From Myxococcota bacterium (GTDB taxonomy: Bacteria; Myxococcota; B64-G9): a stretch of 64,000 bases of DNA. Shown here piece by piece: positions 2,805-25,488 of the stretch. The notes beneath the pieces were generated by a model. The model did not search any database. It was not told where the DNA came from and saw nothing but the letters and a program-made list of their open reading frames with translations. The stretch spans positions 1-64,000 of the forward strand of contig JAKLGA010000001.1 in assembly GCA_022710975.1 (NCBI GenBank), written 5' to 3'. Within the stretch, counting starts at the first letter, position 1; the number at the start of each line of letters is the position of its first letter. A program made the position numbers and the translations under genes.

Positions 2805-2812
2805 GGCCACGC

Positions 2813-3421
2813 TCACGTATCTTTGAGATGGGGCGCCATGCGGCGCGCCAGCTCCATGCGCGCGCGGTGCAACCTGCTCTTCACCGTGCCCTCGGCCAGG
2901 CCGGTGATGTCCTGGATCTCCTCGTAGGTGAGCTGCTCGAGGTCCCGCAGCACGACCAGCTCGCGGTGGTCCTCGCTCATCCCGGCCAACTCCTGCAAGA
3001 CGCGGCTCTCGAGCTCGCGGCCCTCGATGGCGCGATCGGGGCGCTGGAGGCGGCTGCCGGCCACCGGATCGGCCAGCGACTCGCCGGCCAGGTCGGCCTG
3101 GCGGGTGTCCTCCAGCGGTTGCTGGCGCTCGTGCGCCCGGCGGCGCAGGAACTTCAGCCGGTTGAGGCAGTGGTTGCGGGTGATGCGGTAGATCCAGGTC
3201 GACAGCAGGCTCTCCTCGCGGAAGGTCTGGATGTTCCTGAAGACGCTGATGAAGACCTCCTGGGCCAGGTCCTCGGCCTCGGCCCGGTCGGCCAGCATGC
3301 GCAGGCACAGGCCGTAGACCCGGTGCTGGTGCAGCCGCACCAGCAGCTCGAACGCGGCCTCCTCGCCGCGCTTGAGCGCGGACACGAGCCGGCGATCCTC
3401 TTCTCGGAGCTCCTCGGTCAC
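2813..3421 (-). CDS. ECF-family RNA polymerase sigma factor
   Basis: This encodes about 202 residues from the GTG at 3421. Region 2 contains LVSALKRGEEAAFELLVRLH and the core-binding DLAQEVFISVFRN. Region 4 contains the helix-turn-helix LTYEEIQDITGLAEGTVKSR followed by LHRARMELARRM. The size and two-domain layout are those of an extracytoplasmic-function sigma. The frame stays open to a TTG at 3460. I prefer 3421 because a candidate ECF promoter at 3472-3497 would leave the TTG practically leaderless, but neither start has a good Shine-Dalgarno. It forms an operon with the anti-sigma gene downstream. Confidence 0.9.
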   Translation of the reverse strand: MTEELREEDRRLVSALKRGEEAAFELLVRLHQHRVYGLCLRMLADRAEAEDLAQEVFISVFRNIQTFREESLLSTWIYRITRNHCLNRLKFLRRRAHERQQPLEDTRQADLAGESLADPVAGSRLQRPDRAIEGRELESRVLQELAGMSEDHRELVVLRDLEQLTYEEIQDITGLAEGTVKSRLHRARMELARRMAPHLKDT

Positions 3422-3471
3422 GGTGGCTGCATGGTACGTTTCCAGGGTCTGCTCCGTCAAACTTGTCGGTT

Positions 3472-3497
3472 GGACGCCGGGGGCACGGCCTGGTTCC
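3472..3497 (-). promoter_or_regulatory. Candidate autoregulatory ECF promoter
   Basis: On the reverse strand GGAACC (3497-3492) is followed after 15 bp by CGTCC (3476-3472). That is the usual GGAAC...CGTC form recognised by ECF sigma factors, and it lies immediately upstream of the sigma/anti-sigma operon. Positive autoregulation is inferred. Confidence 0.5.
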
Positions 3498-3589
3498 CGG
3501 CGCGCGGGAACGCGGCCGTGGGCCCCCGCGTTCAGCTGACGGGCCCGGAGGCGCGCCGATGGAGCCGGACCAGGACCGCGGATGGCCGC

Positions 3590-3663: not shown

Positions 3664-6600
3664 ATGCGACGCTTTTCGCGGTTGGCGTGGTGGTTGGGGG
3701 GCGTCCTGGCGCTGGGCGCGGGAGCGGCGGGGGCGGCCGAGGGCAAGGGCGCCCAGCCGTCCTACGATCTGTCCCGCATGGAGGCCTTCAGCTGGACCAT
3801 CCTGCAGCTCAAGCAGGACTACGTGGATCCGACCCGGGTGGACCCGGAGAAGATGCTCCGGCGCACCCTCGAGGCCATCGAGCGCAACGTGGCCGAGGTC
3901 GAGATCCGCATCGAGGGCGGCGAGGCCGTGGTCCAGGTCGGCCCGCGCAAGGCCACCTTCAAGGTCGGCCAGCCCACCACGGTCTGGGAGCTGAACTACA
4001 ACCTGCAGCCGATCTTCCGCTTCATCGCCGAGAACCTGGAGCCCACGACCGACGCCAAGGACGTGGAGTACACGGCCATCAACGGCCTGCTGACCACCCT
4101 CGACCCGCACTCGAACCTGCTGCCGCCCGAGCTGTTCCGCGAGATGCAGCTCAAGACCACCGGCGAGTTCGGCGGCCTGGGCATCCGCATCTCTGTCCGC
4201 AAGGGCGCCCTGACCGTCATCTCCCCGCTGCCCGACTCGCCGGCCGCCCGCCTGGGGCTGAAATCCGGCGATCAGATCGTGCGCATCGAGGACCAGTCCA
4301 CGGTCAACATGCCCCTGGACGAGGCGGTCAACCTGCTGCGGGGGCCGGCCGGCTCCCCGGTCACCATCTGGGTCAAGCGCCAGGGCTGGACCGAGGCGCA
4401 CAAGTACGTGATCAACCGCGAGGTGATCCGGGTGCGCAGCATCGAGTCCCGCCTGCTGGCCGGCCAGGTGGGCTACATCCAGATCGTGGACTTCTCGCGC
4501 CACACGGGCGGCGACTTCCTGCGCCACCTGTCGGACCTGAAGAGCGAGGCCAAGGGGCTGCGCGGGCTGATCGTGGATCTGCGCAACAACGCCGGCGGCC
4601 TGCTCAAGGCGGCCGTGCAGGTGGCCGACCTGCTGCTCGACCGCGGCATCATCGTGGCCACGGTGGCCTACGGCGAGGACTCCACACCGGAGGACCGGGT
4701 GCAGAAGAGCCGCGAGGAGCAGCGCGCCAAGGAGGGCGACTCGGAGGTGGAGCTGCCCATCGTGGTGCTGGTCAACGACGGCAGCGCCTCGGCCTCCGAG
4801 ATCCTGGCCGGCGCGCTGAAGAACCTGGACCGCGCGGTGCTGGTCGGCGAGCAGACCTTCGGCAAGGGCACCGTGCAGATCCTCAACGAGCGCGTGCCGC
4901 CCTCGATCGAGGGCGCCTGCCTGAAGCTGACGGTGGCCGAGTACCTGATCCCGGGCGACGTGAGCATCCAGGAGGTCGGCGTGACCCCGGACGTGGCCCT
5001 GGTGCCCACGCTGCTGGAGGAGGACGGGGTGCGCATGCACGTGAAGCCCGTCAGCTTCCGCGAGGAGAACATCCCGGCCCACCTGAAGAAGCAGGCCGAC
5101 AAGGTGGCGCTGAAGCCGGCCTTCGAGATCCCCTTCCTGGACGATCCGCCCCCGAAGCTGGCCCCGGACGAGGAGCCGCCGCTCGAGGAGCCGGGCTTCA
5201 AGGAGGACTTCACCGTGCGCTTCGCCAAGGAGCTGCTGCTGCGGGTGAAGTCCCCGCGCGGCAGCGCCATGCTGGACGAGGCCGCCGCCTACCTGGCCGA
5301 GGTGAGCCAGGCCGAGCAGAAGAAGATGGTGGAGGCGCTGGCCAAGCTCAAGGTGGACTGGTCGGCCGGGGGCGGGGAGGGCGCCGCCGGGAGCGCCGGC
5401 TTCAAGCTGGGCGGCGAGGGCGTGGGCGGCGAGGGCCAGGCCCTGGCCGACAAGACCGTGCAGATGGAGCTCAGCGTGCGCAACACCGGCAGCGCCCCGT
5501 TCTACCGGCTGCGGGCCGAGTCGCGCTGCGAGAACCCGCTCTTCGACCGGCGCGAGTTCCTGTTCGGCCGGCTCGACCCCGGCCAGGAGCGCACCTGGAA
5601 GGTGCCGGTCAAGGTGCCGCTGGGCGTGTCCACCCGCACCGACGACCTGCGCTTCGACTTCTTCGCCGAGGGCAGCCCGGCGCCGGCCCGCATGGAGACG
5701 CTGGTGCGGACCCAGGGCGTGCCCAAGCCCTCCTTCGGCTACACCTACGCGGTGCGCGAGCGCGAGGGCAACGGCGACGGGCTGCTGCAGGCCGGGGAGA
5801 AGGCCGAGCTCGGCTTCACCGTCACCAACCTGGGCGAGGGCCTGGCCAAGGACGCGCGCGTCATGCTGCGCAACGAGTCGGGCAAGGATCTCTTCCTGGA
5901 GGCCGGCAGCGGCCGGGCCACCTTCGGCGAGCTCCCGCCCGGCGAGTCCCGCAGCCACGCCTTCTCCTTCCACGTCCCGGCCGAGGCCACCAGCGCGAGC
6001 CTGACCGTGGAGGTGGACATGTGGGACGCGGTGCTGGGCACGAACCACGTGGCGCGCCTCGAGCTGCCGCTCCTGCCGCCGGGCCTGGCCTCCAGCCCCG
6101 AGCCGGGCCGGGTGAAGGCGGCCGCGGACGGCGTCGAGGTGCGCGCGACCCCCGACGCCCAGGCGCCCGCGGTGGCCCGCCTGCGCAAGGGCGCGGTGCT
6201 GCAGGCCGATCGCCGGGCCGGGGACTGGCGCCGGGTGCAGCTCCCGGGCAAGGACGCCGGCAGCGGCTGGGTGCGCGCGGCCGAGCTGGCCAAGGCCGGC
6301 GCCAAGGCCCGGCTGGCGGGCCCGGAGGGGCTGCGGCCCTTCAGCCAGAGCACCCCGCCGGACATCCGGCTGGAGGCCCTGCCCGCCTACCTCGAGAGCG
6401 GCGACCGGGTGGTGCTGCGCGGGGTGATCGTCGACGAGGACCACGATCTGCGCGACGTGGCCGTGTGGGTGGGCTCGAAGAAGGTGTACCTGAAGCCCGG
6501 CTCCGAGTCGCGCGACCCGCGCCGCATGACCCTCGAGGTGCCGCTCACCCTCGAGCCGGGGCCCAACTTCGTGTCGGTCATCGCCCGCGAGGGCAGCCGC

Positions 6601-6699
6601 TACTCGTCCCAGCGCACCGTGGTGGTCACCCGCCCGGGCGGCCTGGACAGGCCCAAGAGCGCCGAGGACGAGGAGGACCCGTCCGCGCTGATGGAGTGA
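3664..6699 (+). CDS. Large S41-family (Ctp-type) serine peptidase with PDZ and SH3-like parts
   Basis: This encodes 1011 residues, more than twice the usual 400-450 of C-terminal processing peptidases. Order: signal peptide (1-25); N-terminal helical region; PDZ domain (about 165-255, with GGLGIRISVRKGALTVISP); S41 catalytic core. By alignment with E. coli Tsp, the catalytic serine is S376 in NDGSASASE and the general-base lysine is K401 in TFGKGT, 25 residues later as expected. After residue 500 come two beta-rich domains (about 590-815), an SH3-like segment (about 820-880, VRATPDAQAPAVARLRKG) and a final beta-domain. This layout recalls the myxobacterial 'MXAN_5808 family' serine peptidases. 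It is probably periplasmic and acts on envelope proteins; substrates are unknown. Confidence 0.9.
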   Translation: MRRFSRLAWWLGGVLALGAGAAGAAEGKGAQPSYDLSRMEAFSWTILQLKQDYVDPTRVDPEKMLRRTLEAIERNVAEVEIRIEGGEAVVQVGPRKATFKVGQPTTVWELNYNLQPIFRFIAENLEPTTDAKDVEYTAINGLLTTLDPHSNLLPPELFREMQLKTTGEFGGLGIRISVRKGALTVISPLPDSPAARLGLKSGDQIVRIEDQSTVNMPLDEAVNLLRGPAGSPVTIWVKRQGWTEAHKYVINREVIRVRSIESRLLAGQVGYIQIVDFSRHTGGDFLRHLSDLKSEAKGLRGLIVDLRNNAGGLLKAAVQVADLLLDRGIIVATVAYGEDSTPEDRVQKSREEQRAKEGDSEVELPIVVLVNDGSASASEILAGALKNLDRAVLVGEQTFGKGTVQILNERVPPSIEGACLKLTVAEYLIPGDVSIQEVGVTPDVALVPTLLEEDGVRMHVKPVSFREENIPAHLKKQADKVALKPAFEIPFLDDPPPKLAPDEEPPLEEPGFKEDFTVRFAKELLLRVKSPRGSAMLDEAAAYLAEVSQAEQKKMVEALAKLKVDWSAGGGEGAAGSAGFKLGGEGVGGEGQALADKTVQMELSVRNTGSAPFYRLRAESRCENPLFDRREFLFGRLDPGQERTWKVPVKVPLGVSTRTDDLRFDFFAEGSPAPARMETLVRTQGVPKPSFGYTYAVREREGNGDGLLQAGEKAELGFTVTNLGEGLAKDARVMLRNESGKDLFLEAGSGRATFGELPPGESRSHAFSFHVPAEATSASLTVEVDMWDAVLGTNHVARLELPLLPPGLASSPEPGRVKAAADGVEVRATPDAQAPAVARLRKGAVLQADRRAGDWRRVQLPGKDAGSGWVRAAELAKAGAKARLAGPEGLRPFSQSTPPDIRLEALPAYLESGDRVVLRGVIVDEDHDLRDVAVWVGSKKVYLKPGSESRDPRRMTLEVPLTLEPGPNFVSVIAREGSRYSSQRTVVVTRPGGLDRPKSAEDEEDPSALME

Positions 6700-6720
6700 C
6701 GGCCCCGCCCCCGATCGCAA

Positions 6721-6824
6721 CCAGACACCAGACACCAGGCACGGTGACGCCCTTGAACGGCCTGCTTCGTGCACCGTGCATGGTGCATCGTCCCTCGAAG
6801 CACCAAGCACTCAGCACCAAGCAC
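6721..6824 (-). repeat. Degenerate heptanucleotide array 3' of the aminotransferase gene
   Basis: Two blocks with strict 7-bp periodicity lie between convergent genes. In the sense of the minus-strand aminotransferase, 6824-6769 reads as eight heptads (GTGCTTG, GTGCTGA, GTGCTTG, GTGCTTC, GAGGGAC, GATGCAC, CATGCAC, GGTGCAC). The stretch 6741-6721 adds GTGCCTG, GTGTCTG and a GTCTG-type unit. It shares the GTGYNNG form with arrays at 22347, 37207 and 44865. Function unknown. Confidence 0.75.
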
Positions 6825-6829
6825 GATCC

Positions 6830-8020
6830 TCAACGCTTCGAGGTCGCCTCCTGGAAGGCCGCGCGCAGCGGCTCCAGGGCGCCCTCCACCTCGGCCATGC
6901 TGACGGAGTAGGACAGGCGCATGTGGCCGGTGCGGGCGAAGCCGCAGCCGGGCACGGCCAGCACCCGGTGCTTCTGGAGAATCCGGATGAAGGCCTGGTC
7001 GTCGGGGATGGGGGTCTGGGGGTACACGTAGAAGGCCCCCTGCGGCCGGGTGAACCGGTAGCCGATGTCCGCCAGGCCGGCGCACAGCCGGTCGCGCAGC
7101 GCCTGGTAGACGCCGATGTCCACCGCCGCGCTCTGCGTCTCCGCGGCCACCCGCTGGAAGAGCGCCGGCGCGTTCACGTAGCCGAGCGTGCGGTTGACGA
7201 AGGTGAGCGCGTCCGTGAGCTCGCGCCGATCCCGGTGCCGCGGGGAGATGGCCGCGTAGCCGATGCGCTCGCCGGCCAGGCCGAGGTCCTTGGAGTGCGA
7301 GGTCAGCAGCACCGTGTCCGGGTACGCGGCGAAGGGGTTGGGCGCCCTGGCCCCGTCGTACACCAGCTTGCGGTAGGGGTCGTCGGACAGCAGGGTGATC
7401 GTGTGGCCGGTCTTCTGCTCCCACGCCGCGAGCAGCGCGCCCAGCTCGGTCAGGCGCGCGGCGCTGTACATGCGGCCGGTGGGGTTGTTGGGCGAGTTGA
7501 TCAAGACCGCCTTGGTGCGCGGCCCGAACTGGGCCTCGAGGGAGGCCAGGTCGAGATCGAAGTCCGCGGCGCTCTCGGCCACCCGCAGCTCGCCGCCGTG
7601 GTTGTCCACGTAGAAGCGGTACTCGGGGAAGAAGGGCGCCACCACCACCACCTGATCGCCGGGATCGAGCAGCGACTTCAGCGCGATGTTCAGCGCCCCG
7701 GCCGCGCCGGTGGTCATGACGAGATCCGCGGCCTCGAAGGGCTCGGCGAACTCGTCCCGCAGGTAGGCGGCGATGCGCTCGCGGACCTCTGGGAAACCGG
7801 CGTTGGACATGTAGCGGTGCAGCCCCGGCTGGGGCTTCTCCAGCAGGCGGCGGATGGAGGCGTGCACCTGGGGCGGGGGCTCCAGGATGGGGTTGCCCAG
7901 GCTGAAGTCGAACACGTTCTCGGCCCCGAACTCCCGCCGCATCCGCACCCCCTCCTCGAACATCTTGCGGATGAAGGAGGCGTTCGTCATGAACTTCTGG
8001 ATCTTGGCGGAGATGGCCAT
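6830..8020 (-). CDS. Pyridoxal-phosphate aminotransferase, class I/II (aspartate/alanine type)
   Basis: This encodes 396 residues from the ATG at 8020 (MAISAKIQKFM); a longer upstream frame lacks support. Fold-type I landmarks are all present: TTGAAGALN at the cofactor phosphate site, the INSPNNPTGR loop, DDPYRKLVYD, and the Schiff-base lysine in SHSKDLGLAGERIGY. The C-terminal substrate-binding arginine is in MRLSYS. It belongs to the aspartate/alanine aminotransferase group, transferring amino groups between an amino acid and 2-oxoglutarate in the cytosol; exact substrate cannot be read off. It is divergent from metH, with 145 bp between them. Confidence 0.92.
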   Translation of the reverse strand: MAISAKIQKFMTNASFIRKMFEEGVRMRREFGAENVFDFSLGNPILEPPPQVHASIRRLLEKPQPGLHRYMSNAGFPEVRERIAAYLRDEFAEPFEAADLVMTTGAAGALNIALKSLLDPGDQVVVVAPFFPEYRFYVDNHGGELRVAESAADFDLDLASLEAQFGPRTKAVLINSPNNPTGRMYSAARLTELGALLAAWEQKTGHTITLLSDDPYRKLVYDGARAPNPFAAYPDTVLLTSHSKDLGLAGERIGYAAISPRHRDRRELTDALTFVNRTLGYVNAPALFQRVAAETQSAAVDIGVYQALRDRLCAGLADIGYRFTRPQGAFYVYPQTPIPDDQAFIRILQKHRVLAVPGCGFARTGHMRLSYSVSMAEVEGALEPLRAAFQEATSKR

Positions 8021-14506: not shown

Positions 14507-15490
14507 TCACTCCCCGTAGCCGAAGACGATCCCGGGCGTGGTGTCGGAGAAGGCCATGGGCACCGAGCGCAGGCGCTCGAGCGGGTCGACCGCGCGGCCG
14601 TCCACGAACACGGCGAAGTGCAGGTGCGGGCCGGTGGTCCGGCCCGTGTCGCCCAGCAGCCCCAGCACGTCGCCCTGGCCGAGGTCCTGGTCCACCTCGA
14701 CCATGATGAGCGCCAGGTGGGCGTAGACCGTGTGGCTGCCGTCGGCGTGCTTGAGCCGCACCACCCGCCCGCCCGAGCCGCCCCAGCCGGCCTTGACCAC
14801 CGTGCCCGCGGCCACGGCGTACACCGGCTCGTGGGGCGGCGCGGCCAGATCGATGCCGGCGTGGAAGCGCACCCGCAGGGGCTGGAGCGGGTCGCGCCGG
14901 TTGCCGTAGCCCGAGGTGATCACCCCGTGCGAGATGGGCCAGGCCAGGCCGTCCTCCTCGCTGGGGCCCTTCAACCGGGTCGAGGCCGCGGCGAGGGTGC
15001 GCATGGCCCACACCTTGCGGTCGATGCGCAGCACCAGCCCGCCCACCACGGTCGCCAACTCGGCCGGCGGCCCGTCCTCGCGCCGCAGCTCGCGGTCGAT
15101 CTCGTACTCGGCCGCCACCCGCGCGCGCACCAGCGGGGCCAGCGCCAGGCGCTCCGGGGCCTGGGACAGGTAGGCGTCCACGGTCTCCAGGAAGGGTGGC
15201 CAGGCCGAGTCCAGGGCCGGCCCGGTCAGCCGCCGCTGGCGCTGGAACTGGGAGATGGCCTCCTCGACCTCCTCGAGGCTCGGCGGGGCCAGGCCGTCCC
15301 CGTCGGCCGCCCGCGCGCGCTCGTCGGGGCTCCGGGGCGGCTCGGCGCGGTGGTCCTGCCAGCTCGCCCAGCCGGCCTGCTGGGAGACCCGGTGGCGTGA
15401 CAGACCGGGCGTCGGATCGCGGTCCAGCCGCAGCCTCGGCGCGCAGCCGAGCTGGAGCAGGGCGACCAGGAAAATGCAGGCCCGGCGCAT
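14507..15490 (-). CDS. M23 family metallopeptidase lipoprotein (LytM/peptidoglycan endopeptidase type)
   Basis: This encodes 327 residues from the ATG at 15490. The lipobox is LLQLGC (Cys20), so the protein is lipid-anchored. Residues about 190-310 are the M23 domain. The zinc/catalytic motifs are complete: HAGIDLAAP (H-x3-D) and HLHFAVFVDG (H-x-H), plus the usual GPHLHF context. It probably cleaves peptidoglycan cross-links in the periplasm. The helical N-terminal half (about 30-190) is unassigned and may be a docking segment. It is convergent with the barrel gene and divergent from the large lipoprotein gene. Confidence 0.9.
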   Translation of the reverse strand: MRRACIFLVALLQLGCAPRLRLDRDPTPGLSRHRVSQQAGWASWQDHRAEPPRSPDERARAADGDGLAPPSLEEVEEAISQFQRQRRLTGPALDSAWPPFLETVDAYLSQAPERLALAPLVRARVAAEYEIDRELRREDGPPAELATVVGGLVLRIDRKVWAMRTLAAASTRLKGPSEEDGLAWPISHGVITSGYGNRRDPLQPLRVRFHAGIDLAAPPHEPVYAVAAGTVVKAGWGGSGGRVVRLKHADGSHTVYAHLALIMVEVDQDLGQGDVLGLLGDTGRTTGPHLHFAVFVDGRAVDPLERLRSVPMAFSDTTPGIVFGYGE

Positions 15491-15587
15491 GGTTCGATGA
15501 TAGCCAGGCCTCCCCACGAGGGCAACTTCTGGCGGGACGGGCCGATCGGGCGGGGTCTGTGACGAGCTGGCGCGCGTTCGCTCCCTC

Positions 15588-15616
15588 TTGCCAGCAAGGG
15601 AAACCTCGTGCTAGGT
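15588..15616 (+). promoter_or_regulatory. Candidate promoter of the first ASH/VWA lipoprotein gene
   Basis: TTGCCA (15588-15593), 17 bp, CTAGGT (15611-15616). It is followed by an 84-bp leader and a GGAGG site before the ATG at 15700. Confidence 0.4.
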
Positions 15617-15699
15617 GTCTCTTGCACCGGTTCGATGTGCGCCAGTGGCGCAGGGCGGCCTACCTTTCCTTGGAGCTCGCGGGACGGAGGAGCGAAGGC

Positions 15700-18600
15700 A
15701 TGAACCCGAGGCAGATCCGCTTGGCGATCGTGGCCCTGGCCCTGCTGCCCATCGCCCTGGGCTGCGAGTGCGGCGGCTCCGAGTTCGTTCCCCAGTCCGG
15801 CAACATCGGGCGCTACCACGTGTCCACGGGCACCACGCCCCCGCCGCTCGACCAGTACGCCGAGGCGCAGCCGGGCGTGGACCCGGATCGGGCCGAGGTG
15901 GCCGTGGACTTCGGCTCGGTGGACGTGGACACCCAGGCCATGCGCTACCTCTTCTTCCGCAACACGGGCACGGCCGATCTGCTGGTCGGCGCGGTGAGCT
16001 TCGAGCAGGGCGCGGATCCCGCCTTCGCCGTGGCCTGCCTGCAGGACGGCAGCTTCGTGGCCGGCTGCCCGTACTCCGACTCCGCCCCGCTGGCCATCCC
16101 GGCCGGCGGCGATCTGGTCATCCAGGCGGCCTTCGCCCCGCAGGAGGTGCGCGCCCACGCGGCCGCGTTCGTGATCGTGTCCACCGCCGCCGACTTCTCC
16201 GAGGTGCGCGTGTCGCTCACCGGCGCCGGGGTGACGCCCGAGATCCAGGTGTGCATCAGCGACTGCGTCGGCGACCAGGGGGCCGCGGGCTGCAGCGGGG
16301 CGACCGACCTGTGCAACGACGTGGCCCCGGGCGACCTGCGGGTGGACTTCGGCGACGGCGTGACCGGCCAGACCTCCACCCGCCGGGTGGTGGTGAAGAA
16401 CCTCGGCAACCAGAGCCTGGTGGTCAGCTTGATCCAGCTCTCCGGCGGCGACGCCAGCCAGTTCGCCTGGACGGCCGCGGGCGATGCCCTGCCCGGGACC
16501 CTGGCCGCCGGCCAGGAGGTCGAGCTCAGCGTCACCTACACCCCGACCACCGGTGGCGAGCACGCCTCGGAGCTCCAGATCCTGTCGAACGACGTGAACG
16601 AGGGCGAGCTGCGCGTGGATCTCGCCGGCCGCGGGCTGGCCCCCCGGGTGTGCCCGGAGCCGCTGACCGTGGACTTCGGCACCGTGCCCGTGGGCGAGAG
16701 CCGTGAGGGCTCCTTCCTGCTGACCAACTGCGGCCTGCTCGAGCTGTCGGTCTCGAGCATCGCGCTGACCGCCGACTCGAGCGCCGACTTCTCCATGGTG
16801 AGCCCGACCGACTTCCCGCTCGTGCTCCAGCCCGGCGAGTCGGCCACGGTGACCGCGGCCTACACCCCCACCGACCGGGGCTCGGACCTGGGCGGGGCGG
16901 CCATCTTCTCCAACGACCCGGCCTCCGATCCGGCCACCGGGCTGACCGGCGTGGTGGCGCTCCGGGGCAACGGCCTGGTGCTGGAGTGCGACATCCTGGC
17001 CGTGCCCAGCCCGCTCAACTTCGGCGGCGTGGTGCAGCAGCAGTCGGACGTCCAGCTCCTGGTGCTGTCCAACGTGGGCAACCACCAGTGCACCTTCCTG
17101 GGGGCCGAGATCACCCAGAACTCGGCCGAGGGCGAGTTCGGCGTGCTGTCCGCGCCGCCCTCGGGCACGGTCTTCCAGCCGGGCGACACCCTGCAGCTCG
17201 AGGTGAGCTACGCGCCGACCGCGCTGGGGCTCGACGCGGGCGTGCTGACGCTGACCGGCACGGACAAGGACGGCCCGACCATCGACGTGCCGCTGGTCGG
17301 CGAGGGGGTGGCCACCGCGGTGTGCGAGCTGTCGGTCACCCCGGCCTCGCTGCGCTTCGGCACCACCAAGCTGAACAACACCCGCGCCCTGTACATCACC
17401 CTGGAGAACAGCGGCAACGCGCCCTGCCAGATCTCGGGCTACGAGATGACCCACGGCATCCTGTTCCCCTACGAGTTCACCGTCACCGGCGCGCCGCCCA
17501 CGCCGTTCAACGTGGCCCGCCGGGGCCAGGCCGGCTCGCGCGTGGACCTCGAGATCACCTTCGCCCCGAGCCAGCTCGGCCTGCACGCGGCCGCCTTCTG
17601 GGTGACCAGCAACGATCCCGACCTGCAGCAGTCCGGCTCCAACCCGTTCGACCAGTTCTCCTGCACCTGGCCCGCGCCGCCCGAGCCCGGCCAGGCCTGC
17701 GTGCCCATCTCGGGCAGCGCGGCCGAGTCGAACATCGAGGTGGTGCCGAGCGAGCTGGACTTCGGCGTGGTGACGCTGGGCTGCAACTCGCCCGAGCTGC
17801 GGGTGACCGTCTACAACCTGGGCACCATCGATCTGAACGTGGCCGACATCTACCTCGAGGACCCGGCCGACCCCAACTTCGAGATCCGCCAGGCCCCGGC
17901 CACCCCGTACGCGCTGCCCGGCGGGCAGAGCTTCGAGGTGCGCCTGCGCTACCACCCGCAGGACATGAGCGTGCACCGCAACTCGCTGTACATCGTGTCC
18001 GACGCCTCCAACGAGGACATGCTGATCGTGCCGCTGTTCGGGCGCGGCACGAACATCTCGGACCAGACCGACGTGTTCCACCAGCCGACCGAGGTGAAGT
18101 CGGACGTGCTGTTCGTGGTGGACAACTCGGGCTCCATGGGCTGGGCCCAGACCGAGCTGGCGAACAACTTCGCCTCGTTCATCGCCTACGCCACCAGCCT
18201 GGAGGTCGACTACCACATCGGGGTCATCACCACCGAGGTGAACGATGCCGAGACCGGCCAGGGCGACCCGGACCGCGACATCTTCCCGGGGGTGCTGGTG
18301 CAGGCGCCGGGCCGGCCCAAGATCATCACCAACCAGACCCCGGAGCTGAACGCGGCCTTCACCGACAACGTGAACGTGGGCACCTGCTGCTCGGACGAGC
18401 AGGAGGCCGGCCTGCAGGCCGCGCACATGGCGCTCAGCGAGCCGCTGGTGAGCGATCCGGCCGCCAACGACGGCTTCGTGCGCGAGGACGCCAAGCTGTA
18501 CCTGATCATGCTCAGCGACGAGCAGGACCAGTCCCGCGGCGAGCCCGACTTCTACGTGGACTTCTTCCAGTCGATCAAGGGATTCCGCAACACCGCCTGG

Positions 18601-18993
18601 ATGAAGATGTCGGCCATCGTGGGCGACGCGCCCGACGGCTGCCCGGCCGGCGCGGCCGAGCCCACCGCGGGCTCCGGCAGCCGCTACATCGAGGTGGCCA
18701 ACCGCACCGGCGGCATCTTCGAGAGCATCTGCACCTCGAACTGGGCCCAGTCGCTGCAGAACCTGGGCATCGACGCCTTCGCCGCCATCCAGGAGTTCCC
18801 GCTCTCCCGGCCGGCGGATCCGGGCTCGATCAGCGTCACCGTGGACGGGGTGGCAGTCCCGCCCTGCGGCACGCCCGGCTGCTCCGACGGGTACACCTAC
18901 TACCCGGACTCCAACACGATCTTCTTCGGCGACGGCATCGTGCCGGAGAAGGGCGACCGCATCGAGATCCACTACACCGCCGCATGCCTCTAG
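15700..18993 (+). CDS. Large lipoprotein with repeated ASH (choice-of-anchor D) domains and a C-terminal VWA domain
   Basis: This encodes 1097 residues from the ATG after GGACGGAGG. Lipobox IALGC gives a lipid-anchored Cys about residue 21. Residues about 60-790 are a chain of roughly seven Ig-like ASH/choice-of-anchor D repeats, recognisable by recurrent V-D-F-G-x-V and 'NxG' strands (e.g. PLTVDFGTVPVGES, PSELDFGVVTLGC). Many paired cysteines suggest disulfides. A von Willebrand A-like domain follows (about 800-1030) with the MIDAS motif D808-N-S-G-S812. The end is a small beta-domain with IEIHYTAACL. It is probably a surface adhesin or structural lipoprotein. It shares most of its architecture with the next gene. 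Confidence 0.88.
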   Translation: MNPRQIRLAIVALALLPIALGCECGGSEFVPQSGNIGRYHVSTGTTPPPLDQYAEAQPGVDPDRAEVAVDFGSVDVDTQAMRYLFFRNTGTADLLVGAVSFEQGADPAFAVACLQDGSFVAGCPYSDSAPLAIPAGGDLVIQAAFAPQEVRAHAAAFVIVSTAADFSEVRVSLTGAGVTPEIQVCISDCVGDQGAAGCSGATDLCNDVAPGDLRVDFGDGVTGQTSTRRVVVKNLGNQSLVVSLIQLSGGDASQFAWTAAGDALPGTLAAGQEVELSVTYTPTTGGEHASELQILSNDVNEGELRVDLAGRGLAPRVCPEPLTVDFGTVPVGESREGSFLLTNCGLLELSVSSIALTADSSADFSMVSPTDFPLVLQPGESATVTAAYTPTDRGSDLGGAAIFSNDPASDPATGLTGVVALRGNGLVLECDILAVPSPLNFGGVVQQQSDVQLLVLSNVGNHQCTFLGAEITQNSAEGEFGVLSAPPSGTVFQPGDTLQLEVSYAPTALGLDAGVLTLTGTDKDGPTIDVPLVGEGVATAVCELSVTPASLRFGTTKLNNTRALYITLENSGNAPCQISGYEMTHGILFPYEFTVTGAPPTPFNVARRGQAGSRVDLEITFAPSQLGLHAAAFWVTSNDPDLQQSGSNPFDQFSCTWPAPPEPGQACVPISGSAAESNIEVVPSELDFGVVTLGCNSPELRVTVYNLGTIDLNVADIYLEDPADPNFEIRQAPATPYALPGGQSFEVRLRYHPQDMSVHRNSLYIVSDASNEDMLIVPLFGRGTNISDQTDVFHQPTEVKSDVLFVVDNSGSMGWAQTELANNFASFIAYATSLEVDYHIGVITTEVNDAETGQGDPDRDIFPGVLVQAPGRPKIITNQTPELNAAFTDNVNVGTCCSDEQEAGLQAAHMALSEPLVSDPAANDGFVREDAKLYLIMLSDEQDQSRGEPDFYVDFFQSIKGFRNTAWMKMSAIVGDAPDGCPAGAAEPTAGSGSRYIEVANRTGGIFESICTSNWAQSLQNLGIDAFAAIQEFPLSRPADPGSISVTVDGVAVPPCGTPGCSDGYTYYPDSNTIFFGDGIVPEKGDRIEIHYTAACL

Positions 18994-19005
18994 GCCCCCC
19001 CCCGG

Positions 19006-19035
19006 TTGCGGCCCCCGGAAATCCGGGTGTAGGCT
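19006..19035 (+). promoter_or_regulatory. Candidate promoter with palindromic spacer between the two ASH/VWA genes
   Basis: TTGCGG (19006-19011), 18 bp, TAGGCT (19030-19035). The spacer contains the inverted repeat CCCGG-AAAT-CCGGG. It could be an operator, or a weak stem-loop closing the upstream gene. Confidence 0.4.
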
Positions 19036-19065
19036 CGGACAGACGGTCCCGACGAGGAGGTCCCC

Positions 19066-22000
19066 ATGCTGCGGAAGGCGAGCGTGCTGTGGCTGGCCGG
19101 GTTCGTGCTGCTGCTCGGCACCCTGGCCTGCGAGTGCGACGGCGGCGGCAACCTGACCGACATCTGGCCGAAGCTGGAGAAGCACTTCGTCGGCCAGGAG
19201 GACGTGACGCCCGCGCTCGAGCAGTACGTCGACGTGCCCGGGTCCGAGACCATCGCCCTCGACTTCGGGCTGACGGACGTGGACATCGCCAACTCGCGCT
19301 ACCTGTTCCTGCGCAACACCGGCAACGGCGATCTGCACATGGCCGGGCTCACCCTGGCCGACGGCTCGAGCGGCGACTTCGCCCCGGCCTGCCTGGAGGG
19401 CGGACAGTTCCGTCTGGGCTGCCCCTACGACGACACGCACACCCTGGTGGTCCCGGCCGGGCAGGACCTGGTGTTGCGGGTGACCTACGCCCCGCGCGAC
19501 GTGGGCGCGGACGCGGGCTCCTTCGTCATCCACACCGACGCCCACGACCACCCGGCGCTGACCGTGACGCTGGCGGGCGAGGGCGTCACCCCGGAGGTCC
19601 AGGTGTGCGTCAGCGACTGCACCGGCGATCAGGCCGGGGCGGGCTGCGCCGGCGCCGGGCTCGTGTGCAACGACGCCCTGGCCCCGGCCAACCTGGAGGT
19701 GGACTTCGGCGACACGGACATGAGCACCGCGGTGGGGCGCGACATGCTCATCCGCAACCTGGGCGATCGCCCGCTCTCGGTGAGCGGCCTGGTGTTCATC
19801 TCCGGGGCCCACAGCCAGTTCAGCCTGGAGGTCACCGGCGGGCAGGCGCTGCCCGGCGTGCTCCCGGCCGGCCAGGAGGCCGTGGTGCACCTGGTGTTCG
19901 ACCCCGGCCTGGGCGGCGAGCACCAGACCACCCTCCAGGTGCAGTCGAACGACGTCAACGAGCGCGAGATCAACCTGGTGCTGTCGGGCCGCGGGCTCGC
20001 GCCGCGCGTGTGCCCGGAGCCCATGGCGCTCGACTTCGGCAACGTGCCCACGGGCCAGTCCCTGGAGCAGTCCTTCGTCATCACCAACTGCGGCCTGCTC
20101 GAGCTGCAGCTCGAGGGGCTGTCGCTCGCGGCCAGCACGAGCGCCGACTTCAGCCTGACCGGCAACCCGGCCCCCACCGCGCTCGCCGTCGGGGCGCAGG
20201 CCACCGTGACCGTGCGCTACTGGCCGCAGGCCCAGGGCTCGGACCGGGGCGGGGTGGAGATCTTCTCCAACGATCCGGCCTCCGATCCCGTGAGCCACCT
20301 GACGGGCGCGGTCAGCCTGGTGGGTCAGAGCGTCCCGCGCCAGTGCCAGATCCAGGCCACGCCCTTCGCGGTCACCTTCGGCGGGGTGGTGCAGCAGCAG
20401 AGCGCCACCGTGAACCTGGTGATCTCCAACCAGGGCTCGGACCTGTGCACCCTGCAGAGCGTGGAGATCTCCGCGAACACGGCCAGCGGCGAGTTCGCCC
20501 TGGACCAGGTCCCGCCGGCCGGCAGCGAGCTCCAGCCGGGCGACTCCCTGGTCGCGGTGGTGCGCTACAGCCCGGTCGACCTGGGGGTGGACACGGGCAC
20601 GCTCAGCATCTTCGGCAACGACGCGGACGGCAACGAGGTGCGGGTGGACCTCAACGGCGAGGGCATCCAGGCCGCGGTGTGCGATCTGGAGGTGAACCCC
20701 GACAGCCTGAACTTCGGCACGGTCAAGGTGAACACCACCGCGACGCAGGTGGTGCAGCTCACCAACGTCGGCCAGGCGCAGTGCAGCATCACCCAGCTCG
20801 AGCTCAAGCAGAGCGCGATGTTCCCGGGCAACTTCACCATCACCGCCGGGCCCAGCGCGCCCTTCGTGCTGAACCGGCGCGGCCAGCCCAACTCCCAGGC
20901 CAGCGTCGAGATCACCTACGCCCCGGACACGGTGTCGCAGGACGAGGTGCTCAAGCAGTCGGCGGCGCTCAGGATCACCTGCGACGATCCCGACCTGCAG
21001 CTCCAGGGCGGCAGCATGTGGGACGTTTGGGCCTGCCTGCCCCCGCCCACCCTGGGCCAGGCCTGCGTGCCGGTCTCGGGCATGTCGGTCGAGTCGGCCA
21101 TCGAGGTGGTGCCCAGCGAGCTCGACTTCGGCGTGGTCGAGGTGGGCTGCAACTCGCCCGAGCTGCACGTGACGGTCTACAACCTGGGCACCGAGGCGCT
21201 GAACATCCAGGACATGTACCTGGAGACCCAGCCCGATCCCAACTTCGAGATCCGCCAGGCCCCGGCCCTGCCCTACAACCTGGCCGGCGGCGGCTCCTTC
21301 CAGGTGCGGCTGCGCTACCACCCCCAGGAGGACCGCGCCCACCGCAACAACCTGATCATCACCTCCGACGCCTCCAACGCCCAGATGCTGGCCGTGCCGC
21401 TGTTCGGCCGCGGCACGCTGCTGTCGCACCAGACCGACGTGTTCCACCAGCCGACCGAGGTGAAGTCGGACGTGCTGTTCGTGATCGACAACTCGGGCTC
21501 CATGGGCTGGGCGCAGCAGGCCCTGGCGGACAACTTCGCCTCGTTCATCTCCTACGCCACCAGCCTGCAGGTCGACTACCACATCGGGGTCATCACCACC
21601 GAGGTGAACTCGTCCGAGACGAACATGGGCGACCCGCCCCGCGACATCATCCCGGGCGTCCTGGTGCAGGCCCCCAGCCGGCCCAAGATCATCACCAACC
21701 AGACCCCCAACCTGAACGCTGCCTTCAGCGACAACGCCAACGTGGGCGACTGCTGCTCGGACGAGCAGGAGTCGGGCCTGCAGGCGGCCCACATGGCGCT
21801 GTCGGAGCCCCTGGTGAGCGACCCGACCGCCAACGACGGCTTCCTGCGCGAGGACGCCAAGCTGTACCTGATCATGCTCAGCGACGAGCAGGACCAGTCG
21901 CGCGGCGACCCCGACTTCTACGTGGACTTCTTCCTGTCCATCAAGGGCTACCGCAACACGGACATGATGAAGATGTCGGCCATCGTGGGCGACGCGCCGG

Positions 22001-22341
22001 ACGGCTGCGCGAACGCCGTCTCGGGCAGCCGCTACATCGACGTGGCCAACCGCACCGGCGGCATCTTCGAGTCGATCTGCACCGCGAACTGGGCCCAGTC
22101 GCTGCAGAACCTGGGCATCGACGCCTTCGCCGCCATCCGCGAGTTCCCCCTGTCGCGGCCGGCGGACGCCGGCACGCTCACGGTCACCGTGGACGGCGTG
22201 GCCGTCCCGGCCTGCGGCACGCCCGGCTGCACCGACGGCTACACCTACTACCCGGACACCAACAGCATCTTCTTCGGCGACAACCGGGTGCCAGGCCGCG
22301 GCGCGCGCATCGAGGTCGACTACGAGGCGGTCTGCCTCTGA
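19066..22341 (+). CDS. Second ASH/VWA lipoprotein, tandem paralogue of the preceding gene
   Basis: This encodes 1091 residues. Lipobox LGTLAC places the lipidated Cys about residue 23. The same order is kept: ASH-type repeats to about residue 790, then a VWA-like domain with MIDAS D808-N-S-G-S812 at the same position as in the paralogue, then a short beta-tail. Long blocks in the VWA part are almost identical between the two (e.g. SDEQDQSRG, NRTGGIFESIC, NLGIDAFAAI). The N-terminal repeats are more diverged. This indicates an old tandem duplication with stronger constraint or gene conversion in the C-terminal half. The role is likely surface adhesion or complex scaffolding. Confidence 0.88.
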   Translation: MLRKASVLWLAGFVLLLGTLACECDGGGNLTDIWPKLEKHFVGQEDVTPALEQYVDVPGSETIALDFGLTDVDIANSRYLFLRNTGNGDLHMAGLTLADGSSGDFAPACLEGGQFRLGCPYDDTHTLVVPAGQDLVLRVTYAPRDVGADAGSFVIHTDAHDHPALTVTLAGEGVTPEVQVCVSDCTGDQAGAGCAGAGLVCNDALAPANLEVDFGDTDMSTAVGRDMLIRNLGDRPLSVSGLVFISGAHSQFSLEVTGGQALPGVLPAGQEAVVHLVFDPGLGGEHQTTLQVQSNDVNEREINLVLSGRGLAPRVCPEPMALDFGNVPTGQSLEQSFVITNCGLLELQLEGLSLAASTSADFSLTGNPAPTALAVGAQATVTVRYWPQAQGSDRGGVEIFSNDPASDPVSHLTGAVSLVGQSVPRQCQIQATPFAVTFGGVVQQQSATVNLVISNQGSDLCTLQSVEISANTASGEFALDQVPPAGSELQPGDSLVAVVRYSPVDLGVDTGTLSIFGNDADGNEVRVDLNGEGIQAAVCDLEVNPDSLNFGTVKVNTTATQVVQLTNVGQAQCSITQLELKQSAMFPGNFTITAGPSAPFVLNRRGQPNSQASVEITYAPDTVSQDEVLKQSAALRITCDDPDLQLQGGSMWDVWACLPPPTLGQACVPVSGMSVESAIEVVPSELDFGVVEVGCNSPELHVTVYNLGTEALNIQDMYLETQPDPNFEIRQAPALPYNLAGGGSFQVRLRYHPQEDRAHRNNLIITSDASNAQMLAVPLFGRGTLLSHQTDVFHQPTEVKSDVLFVIDNSGSMGWAQQALADNFASFISYATSLQVDYHIGVITTEVNSSETNMGDPPRDIIPGVLVQAPSRPKIITNQTPNLNAAFSDNANVGDCCSDEQESGLQAAHMALSEPLVSDPTANDGFLREDAKLYLIMLSDEQDQSRGDPDFYVDFFLSIKGYRNTDMMKMSAIVGDAPDGCANAVSGSRYIDVANRTGGIFESICTANWAQSLQNLGIDAFAAIREFPLSRPADAGTLTVTVDGVAVPACGTPGCTDGYTYYPDTNSIFFGDNRVPGRGARIEVDYEAVCL

Positions 22342-22402: not shown

Positions 22403-22427
22403 TCCCACCAAGACTGCGGGGAGTGAA

Positions 22428-24086
22428 ATGCGCGAAAGATCTGGCTGGTGCGGGGTGTGGATCCTGATCATGCTCTCTCCGCTCTTCGTGGCGGCCTCGT
22501 GTGAGCGCGGGGCGGCCACGCAGGATCCCGGGCCCGTCGCGCCCGTGGCCGCTCCCGCGGCGGAGCCGGTGGGTGAGCCCTTCCCGGCCCAGGTGGCCGG
22601 GCAGTTCTACCCCGCGCGACCCGAGGCGCTGCGGGCCATGATCGCCGGCCACCTGGCCGAGGCGGACAAGACCGCGGGGGTGAAGGTGCCCGCGGGCGCG
22701 GACATCCTGGGCGTGGTCGTGCCACACGCCGGCTACCCCTACTCCGGGCCGGTGGCCGCGCACGCCTTCGCCGCCCTCCGCGGGCGCGAGCTGCGGCGGG
22801 TGGTGGTGCTGGGGCCGGCGCACCGGCGGCGCTTCCCCGTGCCCGCGCTGCTCGACGCCCCGGCCTACCAGACGCCGCTGGGGCCCATCCCCATCGACCG
22901 GGACGGGGTGCGCGCGCTGGCGGCCTCCGGCACCGCCCAGGTCGCGCCCGACAGGTTCCTGGAGGAGCACGCCCTGGAGGTGGAGCTGCCCTTCCTGCAG
23001 GTGGCGCTCGGCGACTTCCAGCTCGTGCCGGTGATGGTGAGCGAGCCTGATCGGCCCGCGATGCAGCGGCTGGCCGCGGCCATCCAGGCGGCCTTCCCCG
23101 GCCGGGACACCCTGGTGGTGGCCTCCACCGACCTGTCCCACGACTACCCCTACGAGGTGGCGGTCGCCATGGACGCGCTGGCCATGCGCCTGGTGACGGC
23201 GCTCGACGCCGACGGGCTGGTGGCCGGCGATGGCCGTTTCCGCCGCGCGGGCGAGGCCATCCGGGTGGGGCAGGACGGCGCGCCCGAGCCCGCGGCGTGC
23301 CAGCTCTGCGGGCTGGGCCCGGTGCTGGCGCTGGTCGAGCTGGCCCGGCTCCACCCGGGCGCCGCGGGGGTGCTGCTCGACCGGCGCACCTCCGGGGACG
23401 TCGTGGGTGACACCCGCTCGCGCATCGTGGGCTACGGGGCGGTGGCCATCCAGCTCGCCAGCCCGCGCCCGGCCCCGACCGGGGTGAAGGCGCAGGGGCC
23501 CGGAACGACCGGCGACTTCCTGTCGGCCGAGGAGAAGGCCGCGCTGCTCGGCGTCGCGCGCCAGGCGCTCGAGCGCCACTTCGCCACCGGCTCGGTCGAT
23601 CTGCCCGTGCCCGCGAGCGAGAAGCTGCGCGCGCCCGGGGCCGCCTTCGTCACCCTGAAGAAGCACGGCGAGCTCCGGGGCTGCATCGGCCACATGGAGC
23701 CGACCTCTCCGCTATGGGAGATGATCCGCGATCGCGCGCTCGACGCGGCCCTGAACGACAACCGCTTCCCGCAGGTGACCCGGGCGGAGCTGGCGGAGCT
23801 CCGCATCGAGATCTCGGTGCTGTCCCCGCGCGTCCCGGTCAAGTCCCCGGAGGCGGACATCGTCATCGGCCGGGACGGGGTGTGGCTCGAGCTCGGGCCC
23901 CACCGCGGGGTGTTCCTGCCCCAGGTGCCGGTCGAGCAGGGCTGGGACACGGTCCCGGTCTACCTGGACAACCTGTGCCGCAAGGCGCACGTCCCGGAGC
24001 GCGGCTGCTGGCGCCGGCCCGAGGCGGTGCTGCAGCGCTTCAGCGCGCTGGTGTTCGGGGAGGAGGAGGCTACAGGGCCGCGGTGA
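22428..24086 (+). CDS. Lipoprotein fusion of MEMO1-like and AMMECR1 domains
   Basis: This encodes 552 residues from the ATG after GGGGAG. The N-terminus (MRERSGWCGVWILIMLS, then VAASC) carries a lipobox, so the protein is predicted to be lipid-anchored outside the cytoplasm. Residues about 45-350 match the MEMO1/AmmeMemoRadiSam B fold. H100 (PHAGYPYSG), H132 (GPAHRRR), H238 (STDLSHDYP) and C291 (ACQLCGLG) follow nearly the spacing of the human MEMO1 set H49, H81, H192, C244. Residues about 365-552 match AMMECR1/AmmeMemoRadiSam A, with LRGCIG at 416-421. The usual radical-SAM partner is absent from this window. Its 3' end overlaps the convergent fadL-like gene by 17 bp. Confidence 0.88.
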   Translation: MRERSGWCGVWILIMLSPLFVAASCERGAATQDPGPVAPVAAPAAEPVGEPFPAQVAGQFYPARPEALRAMIAGHLAEADKTAGVKVPAGADILGVVVPHAGYPYSGPVAAHAFAALRGRELRRVVVLGPAHRRRFPVPALLDAPAYQTPLGPIPIDRDGVRALAASGTAQVAPDRFLEEHALEVELPFLQVALGDFQLVPVMVSEPDRPAMQRLAAAIQAAFPGRDTLVVASTDLSHDYPYEVAVAMDALAMRLVTALDADGLVAGDGRFRRAGEAIRVGQDGAPEPAACQLCGLGPVLALVELARLHPGAAGVLLDRRTSGDVVGDTRSRIVGYGAVAIQLASPRPAPTGVKAQGPGTTGDFLSAEEKAALLGVARQALERHFATGSVDLPVPASEKLRAPGAAFVTLKKHGELRGCIGHMEPTSPLWEMIRDRALDAALNDNRFPQVTRAELAELRIEISVLSPRVPVKSPEADIVIGRDGVWLELGPHRGVFLPQVPVEQGWDTVPVYLDNLCRKAHVPERGCWRRPEAVLQRFSALVFGEEEATGPR

Positions 24087-25488
24087 AGGTCAGGCCGAGC
24101 AGGTGGCTGATGGTGGAGAACTTGCCGTTCGCCCGGCCCTCGTAGTTGAGGCCGTCCCCGCCGCTGCCCACCTCGTTCTGCTTCTCGCCGCTCCAGAAGG
24201 CCAGCATGTAGCCGATGTCCAGCTTACCCCAGGACCAGTGGTAGCCGGTGCCCACGGTGATGAGCTGGCGCTGGCCGTCGGGCAGCGAGGGGTCGTAGGT
24301 GTCGTCCGGCACCGGCGAGGAGACCGTGCCCCAGCCGACGCGCAGCGGCCACACGTCGAACAGGGTGTACTCGAGGCCGAGCGAGAACTGCCAGGACAGA
24401 CCCCAGTTCTTCTCGATCGTCGTGTTGAGGCTCTCGGAGCAGGTCCCGTCGCTCGGCTTGGTGCAGGCGAACTCGATCGACAGCGAGTCGTACGAGCTGA
24501 AGTCCGCCAGGTAGAAGTCGGCCGCCACGATCAGGTTCTCCACCCCCAGGAAGGCCACCCCCACGTTGAAGTTGAAGGGCAGGTCGACGGTCACGCTGCC
24601 GGTGGTCGAGTCCGGGATCCGGGTCAGGCCCTGGTCGGCGAGCTGCTGGCGGGCCTGCAGGCCGGTCTGGTTGAAGACGAAGTTGGCGGTGCCCTCGAAG
24701 GGCAGGCCCATGCTGGCGTCCCCGTTGAAGCCGCCGCGCAGGGACAGGCCGAGGCCGAGGATGCCGGGCCACTCGCCGTACAGCGCCACGTTCCAGCCGT
24801 GGCTGGTGCCGCTGCCGGTCAGGCGCATCTCGCCCCAGGGATCCTCGCCGACCACGGCCGGGTACAGGTAGTGCACGCCGGACAGATCGATGCGCTTGGA
24901 CAGGCGCGCCGTGCCGTAGATGAAGGTGTAGCCCGCGGCCAGCGAGAGCTTGAAGCTGTCCTTGAACCCGGCCAGCTTGGCGAGGTCGACCGCCAGCGCC
25001 AGGTTGGGGAGGAAGGTCTGGATCTCGGTCTCGGTGCCGATGAAGCGGCCGTCCCAGTCGCCCGGCCAGTAGGTGCCCAGGCCGAAGGCGTTGGTCATGC
25101 CGAAGCCCAGGTGGAAGCCCGACTCGAAGATGTTCCAGGTGGCGTACAGGTGGATCGGGTTGAAGCCCTTGACCTTGGCGTCCACGTCGTTCGTGCCGTC
25201 GTTGACCACGGTCCCGTACGGGCTGCGGGCGGGCAGCTCGTTGCCGGCCTCGTAGCTGGTGAAGGGCAGGATGCCGGTCACCCCGAGCTGGAGCTGCACG
25301 CCCGGCAGCTCGGTGATGGCCGCGGGGTTGTAGAACATGGCCGACGGATCGTCGGCCACGCCCGTGCGCGCGCCGCACATGCCCGTGCCGGACGCGTTGT
25401 GCTCGTAGATGTAGAAGCCGCCGGCCAGGGCCGACGGGGCCAGGGCCAGGCAGGCCGCCAGGGCCAGGAGCGAGAGCTTGCGGTTCAT
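24070..25488 (-). CDS. FadL/OmpP1/TodX-family outer-membrane transporter
   Basis: This encodes 472 residues with GAGGAGG upstream. After the signal peptide (LALAACLALAPSALA) the mature N-terminus GGFYIYEHNASGTGMCGA begins like the hatch of FadL proteins. DDPSAMFYNPAAITELPGV is the strongly conserved 'xNPAA' motif. The remainder is a 14-strand barrel ending in SHLLGLTFTAAL. Relatives take up long-chain fatty acids or hydrocarbons across the outer membrane. An intrinsic terminator lies just 22 bp before its start, so expression depends on read-through or an internal start (see terminator at 25510). Confidence 0.92.
   Translation of the reverse strand: MNRKLSLLALAACLALAPSALAGGFYIYEHNASGTGMCGARTGVADDPSAMFYNPAAITELPGVQLQLGVTGILPFTSYEAGNELPARSPYGTVVNDGTNDVDAKVKGFNPIHLYATWNIFESGFHLGFGMTNAFGLGTYWPGDWDGRFIGTETEIQTFLPNLALAVDLAKLAGFKDSFKLSLAAGYTFIYGTARLSKRIDLSGVHYLYPAVVGEDPWGEMRLTGSGTSHGWNVALYGEWPGILGLGLSLRGGFNGDASMGLPFEGTANFVFNQTGLQARQQLADQGLTRIPDSTTGSVTVDLPFNFNVGVAFLGVENLIVAADFYLADFSSYDSLSIEFACTKPSDGTCSESLNTTIEKNWGLSWQFSLGLEYTLFDVWPLRVGWGTVSSPVPDDTYDPSLPDGQRQLITVGTGYHWSWGKLDIGYMLAFWSGEKQNEVGSGGDGLNYEGRANGKFSTISHLLGLTFTAAL

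Follow-up and report, generated by a model that had tools for sequence, protein, structure and literature searches.

The gene studied here, which lies in a 64,000-nucleotide stretch of Myxococcota bacterium DNA (the window), encodes a Memo-AMMECR1 fusion with a predicted lipoprotein signal, and is probably one component of an exported AmmeMemoRadiSam system that stands beside the ordinary cytosolic one. The components of the exported system would be the lipoprotein itself, a PFL-activase-like radical SAM enzyme with a Tat signal (C13:66714-67724), and an MFS-fold transporter-like membrane protein carrying a spermidine-synthase-like (SpdS-like; SAM-type) domain in a loop predicted to be extracytoplasmic (MFS-SpdS, C13:62748-64976). 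Its composition is well supported, and we consider it very likely that such a three-component exported system exists; its SAM supply, electron donor, substrate and reaction are what we infer. We judge it about as likely as not that SAM-dependent radical chemistry occurs beyond the cytoplasm.

The ORF, read from the window sequence with an ATG start, codes for 552 residues plus stop (Table 1). Residues 54-265 match TIGR04336/PF01875 (Memo) with 219.5 bits against a cut-off of 26, and residues 372-543 match TIGR04335/PF01871 (AMMECR1) with 157.7 bits against a cut-off of 99, which bears out the fusion proposed in an earlier note on this DNA. The two domains also match human MEMO1 (3bcz, E 6e-15) and PH0010 (1vaj, E 3e-26), respectively. 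The N-terminus reads MRERSGWCGVWILIMLSPLFVAAS, followed by C25, and contains an n-region, an h-region and a lipobox Cys (MRERSGW...LFVAASC), so that lipidation is predicted. The lipoprotein export signal claimed in the same note also held up among homologues: a Cys at the position equivalent to Cys25 ends the signal peptide in 9/9 same-family genomes (LFVAASC, ITAASC, LFVSAC, LTGAC, LAAPSC, LMAPSC, LCAPSC, LVAASC and LMAASC), the remainder of the signal being variable, whereas the stand-alone Memo proteins of those genomes start directly at the domain and have no signal. Retention of this Cys argues against a downstream start of the fusion. The location of the fusion and of the radical SAM enzyme outside the cytoplasm is predicted from such signals.

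Table 1. Features of the Memo-AMMECR1 fusion gene in the window
Feature	Position	Strand	Basis
Shine-Dalgarno-like GGGGAG	22418..22423	+	Directly 5' of the ATG, read from sequence
Exported Memo-AMMECR1 fusion lipoprotein gene (predicted)	22428..24086	+	ORF and family models
Lipoprotein signal peptide, residues 1-24 (predicted)	22428..22499	+	Sequence; terminal Cys kept in nine same-family genomes
Lipobox Cys25 codon, predicted lipidated residue	22500..22502	+	Sequence and conservation
Memo (AmmeMemoRadiSam B) domain, residues about 54-341	22587..23450	+	TIGR04336, MEMO1 match, conservation
AMMECR1 (AmmeMemoRadiSam A) domain, residues 372-543	23541..24056	+	TIGR04335, PH0010 match, conservation

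An alignment of 40 exported fusions shows that H100, H132, D235 and H238 are invariant (40/40). Its conserved Memo-domain cysteine is C294 (39/40), and C291 is variable. H100, H132 and C294 are equivalent to H49, H81 and C244 of MEMO1, with D235 and H238 close by; in the human protein, H49, H81 and C244 bind Fe or Cu (PMC11081632). Of the metal-type residues first named from the single sequence, the three histidines thus stand and C291 does not, and the alignment supports a metal site of MEMO1 type in the fusion. The AMMECR1 domain carries an LRGCIG-type loop (R417 G418 C419 I420 G421) and E503.

No fixed partner gene of the fusion was found within the window, where its neighbors are a large repeat protein upstream and a convergent opposite-strand gene downstream. 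Directly upstream are two large tandem paralogous ORFs (15196-22341, plus strand), whose repeats resemble choice-of-anchor domains and which have a C-terminal part in common. The 3' end of the fusion gene overlaps the convergent minus-strand ORF (24070-25488) by 17 bases (24070-24086).

A TIGR04337 profile search over the 7.13 Mb genome revealed two radical SAM genes, with 362.8 and 359.7 bits against a cut-off of 220. One (L003, on C3) is signal-less and starts shortly before the first Cys motif; the other (L004, on C13) carries a Tat signal at its N-terminus, which begins MRRRDFLALGAG. Stand-alone signal-less genes for Memo (L002, on C23) and AMMECR1 (L005, C1:723641) are also present, and the occurrence of signal-less and exported members of the same three families suggests one set per compartment. 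The earlier description of the fusion as lacking a radical SAM partner therefore applies only to its immediate neighborhood and is wrong for the genome. Its argument that a location outside the cytoplasm would leave such a partner inactive is not supported either, since a Tat-signalled TIGR04337 enzyme is encoded here and, in most of the lineages examined, exported Memo occurs together with a Tat-signalled radical SAM enzyme. Metal handling or redox chemistry without a radical SAM enzyme is thus no longer the first reading, and the two genes led us to reject the fusion as an orphan protein. The trio is dispersed in this genome, with the fusion on C1 and the Tat-signalled enzyme on C13, but its genes are adjacent in others, e.g. 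L059, L060, G060 and G157. In L060 (Geobacter sp. OR-1), MFS-SpdS spans 1228-3516, the Tat-signalled enzyme 4799-5896 and the fusion 5890-7332. Between the MFS-SpdS and radical SAM genes on C13 sits a gene for a Ser/Thr kinase-like protein with an extra C-terminal domain (C13:65216-66712; L004 3-1499; homologues L330 and L334), which two same-family genomes also keep close to the MFS-SpdS gene.

The signal of the C13 enzyme consists of an RRxF motif and a following hydrophobic stretch, MRRRDFLALGAGLCACSAL. The N-termini of 28 Tat-type radical SAM enzymes align on RRxF, and in alignment A1 R3 and R4 are invariant and F6 is conserved at 90% or more. TIGR01409, a curated Tat signal HMM, matches 15/28 of these proteins vs. 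0/28 signal-less controls, and PF10518 matches 6/28; TIGR01409 gives no match to the C13 enzyme itself, in which the RR-F motif is clear. Signals were labeled by an automatic rule followed by correction by eye, which added DRR/ERR Tat signals (L012, L016, L060, L094, L156 and L172), signals with net-neutral n-regions (L007, L014, L032 and L034) and one behind a non-ATG start (L273), and removed a call that arose from a false upstream start (L208). Three members of the exported clade (L013, L042 and L105) appear to have no recognizable signal, their upstream frames having been checked as well. In four WOR-3 genomes (L109, L155, L173 and L175), exported-clade enzymes carry a Sec-like instead of a Tat signal, which would be difficult to reconcile with a folded Fe-S protein and may reflect an absence of Tat.

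Some lineages have a signal-less radical SAM enzyme beside the exported fusion, with a small signal- or TM-containing protein in front. These "split" enzymes (L010, L011, L043, L045, L046, L063 and L065) form one subclade of the radical SAM tree and have only 2-9 residues ahead of the first Cys. A small ORF of about 65-110 aa with a TM or signal segment lies at their 5' end, sometimes overlapping the radical SAM start. The LxLHxGxYW-type C-terminal end of this ORF resembles the EARYYEKL segment of other radical SAM enzymes, and the two products may form a heterodimer or reflect a frameshift. A second type of Tat-signalled radical SAM enzyme, with a different N-terminal segment (RWxPAYEKLExExxLAxxxEQAYAxFExC), occurs in the second phylum examined (L393, L394 and L413).

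In the exported radical SAM enzymes, the CxxxCxxC motif (C119/C123/C126), the N- and C-terminal Cys, TYxEP, DxK and His286 are invariant, and the cluster Cys, both flanking Cys sets and the SAM-site residues are as strictly kept as in the cytosolic enzymes. An AF2 model of the C13 enzyme has a pLDDT of 93.7, with low confidence for the N-terminal residues up to about 28, and its best PDB match is the PFL-activating enzyme with AdoMet (3cb8, E 2.9e-15). Motif and fold place the protein in the radical SAM superfamily as a PFL-activase-like member. Six exported enzymes (L036, L076, L029, L038, L277 and L416) have an additional CxxCH, resembling a haem c site, inserted after the signal and ahead of the enzyme proper, and an ORF recognized by eye as CcsA-like (cytochrome c biogenesis) is directly upstream of L036. 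The insert is a possible haem-c electron entry, which, if real, would itself require a location outside.

A search over 85,000 species for the fusion returned 80 loci. Across these loci and in whole-genome searches, fusions nearly all carry a lipoprotein or Sec signal, whereas stand-alone Memo and AMMECR1 proteins start at the domain. TIGR04337 matches were present in all 50 genomes examined, 48 of them over the cut-off; about two thirds of the 50 have a radical SAM enzyme with a Tat signal, or a Sec-like one in the four WOR-3 genomes, often beside the fusion, and most contain a second, signal-less enzyme too. The window's phylum was sampled evenly and counted after correction of signals by eye: exported Memo and the Tat-signalled enzyme occur together in 16 genomes, exported Memo alone in 1 and neither in 31, while no genome has the enzyme without exported Memo (16/17 with exported Memo vs. 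0/31 without). In a tree of 150 radical SAM enzymes, 45 exported and 11 split enzymes fall in one clade of 61 rows with support 90, and all 89 rows outside it are signal-less. The trait is thus old and stable, but since the exported enzymes are essentially one clade, the co-occurrences share ancestry and Fisher values overstate their independence.

Clustering of neighboring genes identified a membrane protein of ~700-800 residues beside 18 of about 60 fusion loci, with two TM bundles around a Spermine_synth domain. The copy in this genome matches the resulting profile with 491 bits and lies 1.7 kb from the Tat-signalled radical SAM gene. Full-length matches occur in 16/18 exported genomes of the window's phylum vs. 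0/48 others, and in 40/46 further fusion genomes from many phyla. In the second phylum, MFS-SpdS is present in 42/118 genomes; among the 80 of these 118 that were examined for the Tat-signalled enzyme, it was found in 37/42 with MFS-SpdS and 0/38 without. The MFS-SpdS gene lies within 2.5 kb of a system component in 45/95 genomes, and in G186 and G223, where MFS-SpdS is present and a Tat-signalled enzyme absent, the Memo N-termini show no signal. MFS-SpdS is absent from Thermoflexus genomes, whose fusion has no signal (cytosolic), and 7/8 second-phylum fusions in genomes without MFS-SpdS likewise lack one, indicating that this protein goes with export rather than with fusion. These seven signal-less proteins, together with unfused Memo or AMMECR1 that can carry signals (G063 and loci of the second phylum), led us to reject fusion as the key trait.

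With the N-terminus inside, the consensus loops of MFS-SpdS have a K+R of 13.2 for inner loops vs. 2.9 for outer loops, a distribution that places the SpdS-like domain outside in the predicted topology. An AF2 model (pLDDT 90) has the SpeE fold of polyamine aminopropyltransferases in its soluble domain (1uir, Z 28.6) and an MFS fold in its membrane part (SV2A, Z 26, and OCTN2, Z 25, in Foldseek's own list). The corresponding TM7-TM8 loop of SV2A bears a luminal domain. The copy in this genome scores 49.6 bits against NF037959 (fused MFS/spermidine synthase; cut-off 40). No clear acidic residue of GxG(D/E)G, which selects decarboxylated SAM, was seen in 26 aligned sequences, and MFS-SpdS is therefore not filed as a spermidine synthase. 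The glycine motif is degenerate in the window's own lineage (ALFLAEAPLG in this genome) and in Aegiribacteria, which makes SAM binding by these copies doubtful; the copies of L036 and L060 come from lineages in which it is not degenerate. The MFS-SpdS proteins of L338, L341, L342 and L343 are lengthened at the C-terminus by about 250-450 aa that include further TM segments.

We tentatively propose, with a little less than even confidence, that the Tat-exported radical SAM enzyme acts on the lipoprotein-anchored Memo-AMMECR1, that SAM is delivered by MFS-SpdS as a dedicated transporter with an extracytoplasmic SpdS-like domain, and that the system is ancient. Given its Tat signal, the enzyme would fold around its [4Fe-4S] cluster inside the cell, leave folded via Tat, and meet the lipoprotein at the outer face of the inner membrane. 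To our knowledge, no free SAM pool has been established outside the cytoplasm; the membrane protein may bring SAM or a related adenosyl compound to this face, where the enzyme would reduce and cleave it. The radical could then be used on the anchored Memo-AMMECR1, or on a substrate held between the metal site and the AMMECR1 loop.

Supply of SAM from outside could be dispensed with if the Tat-exported enzyme, being a holo-protein of the kind that Tat exports, took up its cluster and a single SAM before leaving the cytoplasm and worked once, in transit or just after export. MFS-SpdS would then have another task, for instance the methylation of an exported partner: NHMT, a fungal 7TM methyltransferase with a SpdS-like domain, acts on secreted proteins and, like MFS-SpdS, is missing the acidic GxG(D/E)G residue (PMC10349129). 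We consider this unlikely: a stoichiometric enzyme is costly, and the degenerate glycine motif of the window's own lineage makes methylation doubtful too. The SAM problem would also be avoided by an exported enzyme that performs no radical chemistry and offers its [4Fe-4S] fold as an electron carrier or scaffold for redox or metal chemistry of Memo-AMMECR1. The CxxCH inserts of a few exported enzymes and the CcsA-like ORF are in keeping with such a role, but the SAM-site residues and both flanking Cys sets are invariant as in the cytosolic copies, and we give this reading a low probability.

An orphan metal/copper or redox lipoprotein working without a radical SAM enzyme, as first suggested, would fit the intact MEMO1-type metal site (PMC11081632) and the lack of a radical SAM gene beside the fusion in the window. 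It is improbable in view of the Tat-signalled enzyme in the same genome and in 16/17 genomes of the phylum with exported Memo, as well as the direct linkage in many others (e.g. the four named above). That the signals are start-site artefacts of a wholly cytosolic system is very improbable: GC-rich DNA does yield long spurious upstream frames, as in the one false call, but RRxF signals and the lipobox Cys are conserved in register across phyla, are absent from paralogues of the same genomes, and are recognized by an independent HMM.

MEMO1 and AMMECR1 are conserved from bacteria to humans, and a compartment duplicate with its own radical SAM enzyme and a tightly linked extra component narrows the possible function of the trio, the exported set being a separable genetic system. 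AMMECR1 also ranks first among anaerobe-indicator Pfams in one recent study (PMC13386939). Radical SAM chemistry is assumed to stay within the cytoplasm, where SAM is present; an exported enzyme of this kind, if true, would overturn that view and open the transport of SAM out of the bacterial cytoplasm to direct tests. Neither an exported or periplasmic radical SAM enzyme nor the trio with MFS-SpdS is described in the literature searched, outside which most subscription papers lie.

Comparison with known systems shows what is shared and what is particular to the exported set. All three families of AmmeMemoRadiSam (TIGR04335/04336/04337), a cytosolic three-gene system, are represented here over their cut-offs, and its ordinary signal-less set is found in this genome as well. 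In contrast to that set, Memo and AMMECR1 are here fused and predicted to be lipoprotein-anchored, the radical SAM enzyme has a Tat signal, MFS-SpdS is additional, and the usual cytosolic location gives way to a predicted external one. Because the trio is not adjacent in this genome, the assignment to AmmeMemoRadiSam is kept on family membership and co-occurrence. The equivalents of H49/H81/C244 and D189/H192 of human MEMO1 (3bcz and 7kq8; LigB-type extradiol dioxygenase fold) are conserved in the window protein, which differs in being bacterial, fused to AMMECR1 and, by its signal, exported.

The PFL-activating enzyme (3cb8) is the closest solved relative of the exported radical SAM enzyme in both fold and sequence, aligning over the CxxxCxxC and SAM-binding regions. 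The exported enzyme adds an N-terminal CxxCxxxC...C, a C-terminal CxxC...CxxC and the Tat signal, and has no known glycyl-radical partner. A membrane bundle and a SpdS-like domain are common to MFS-SpdS, NF037959 and NHMT, and the acidic GxG(D/E)G residue is lacking in NHMT and MFS-SpdS alike. NHMT (7TM-SpdS) uses SAM to methylate the N-terminal His of secreted fungal LPMOs (PMC10349129). MFS-SpdS differs from NF037959 and NHMT in having 7 TM segments before the domain and a second bundle after it, in a fold like that of the MFS proteins SV2A and OCTN2, and in the predicted placement of its domain outside and its tie to exported AmmeMemoRadiSam genes.
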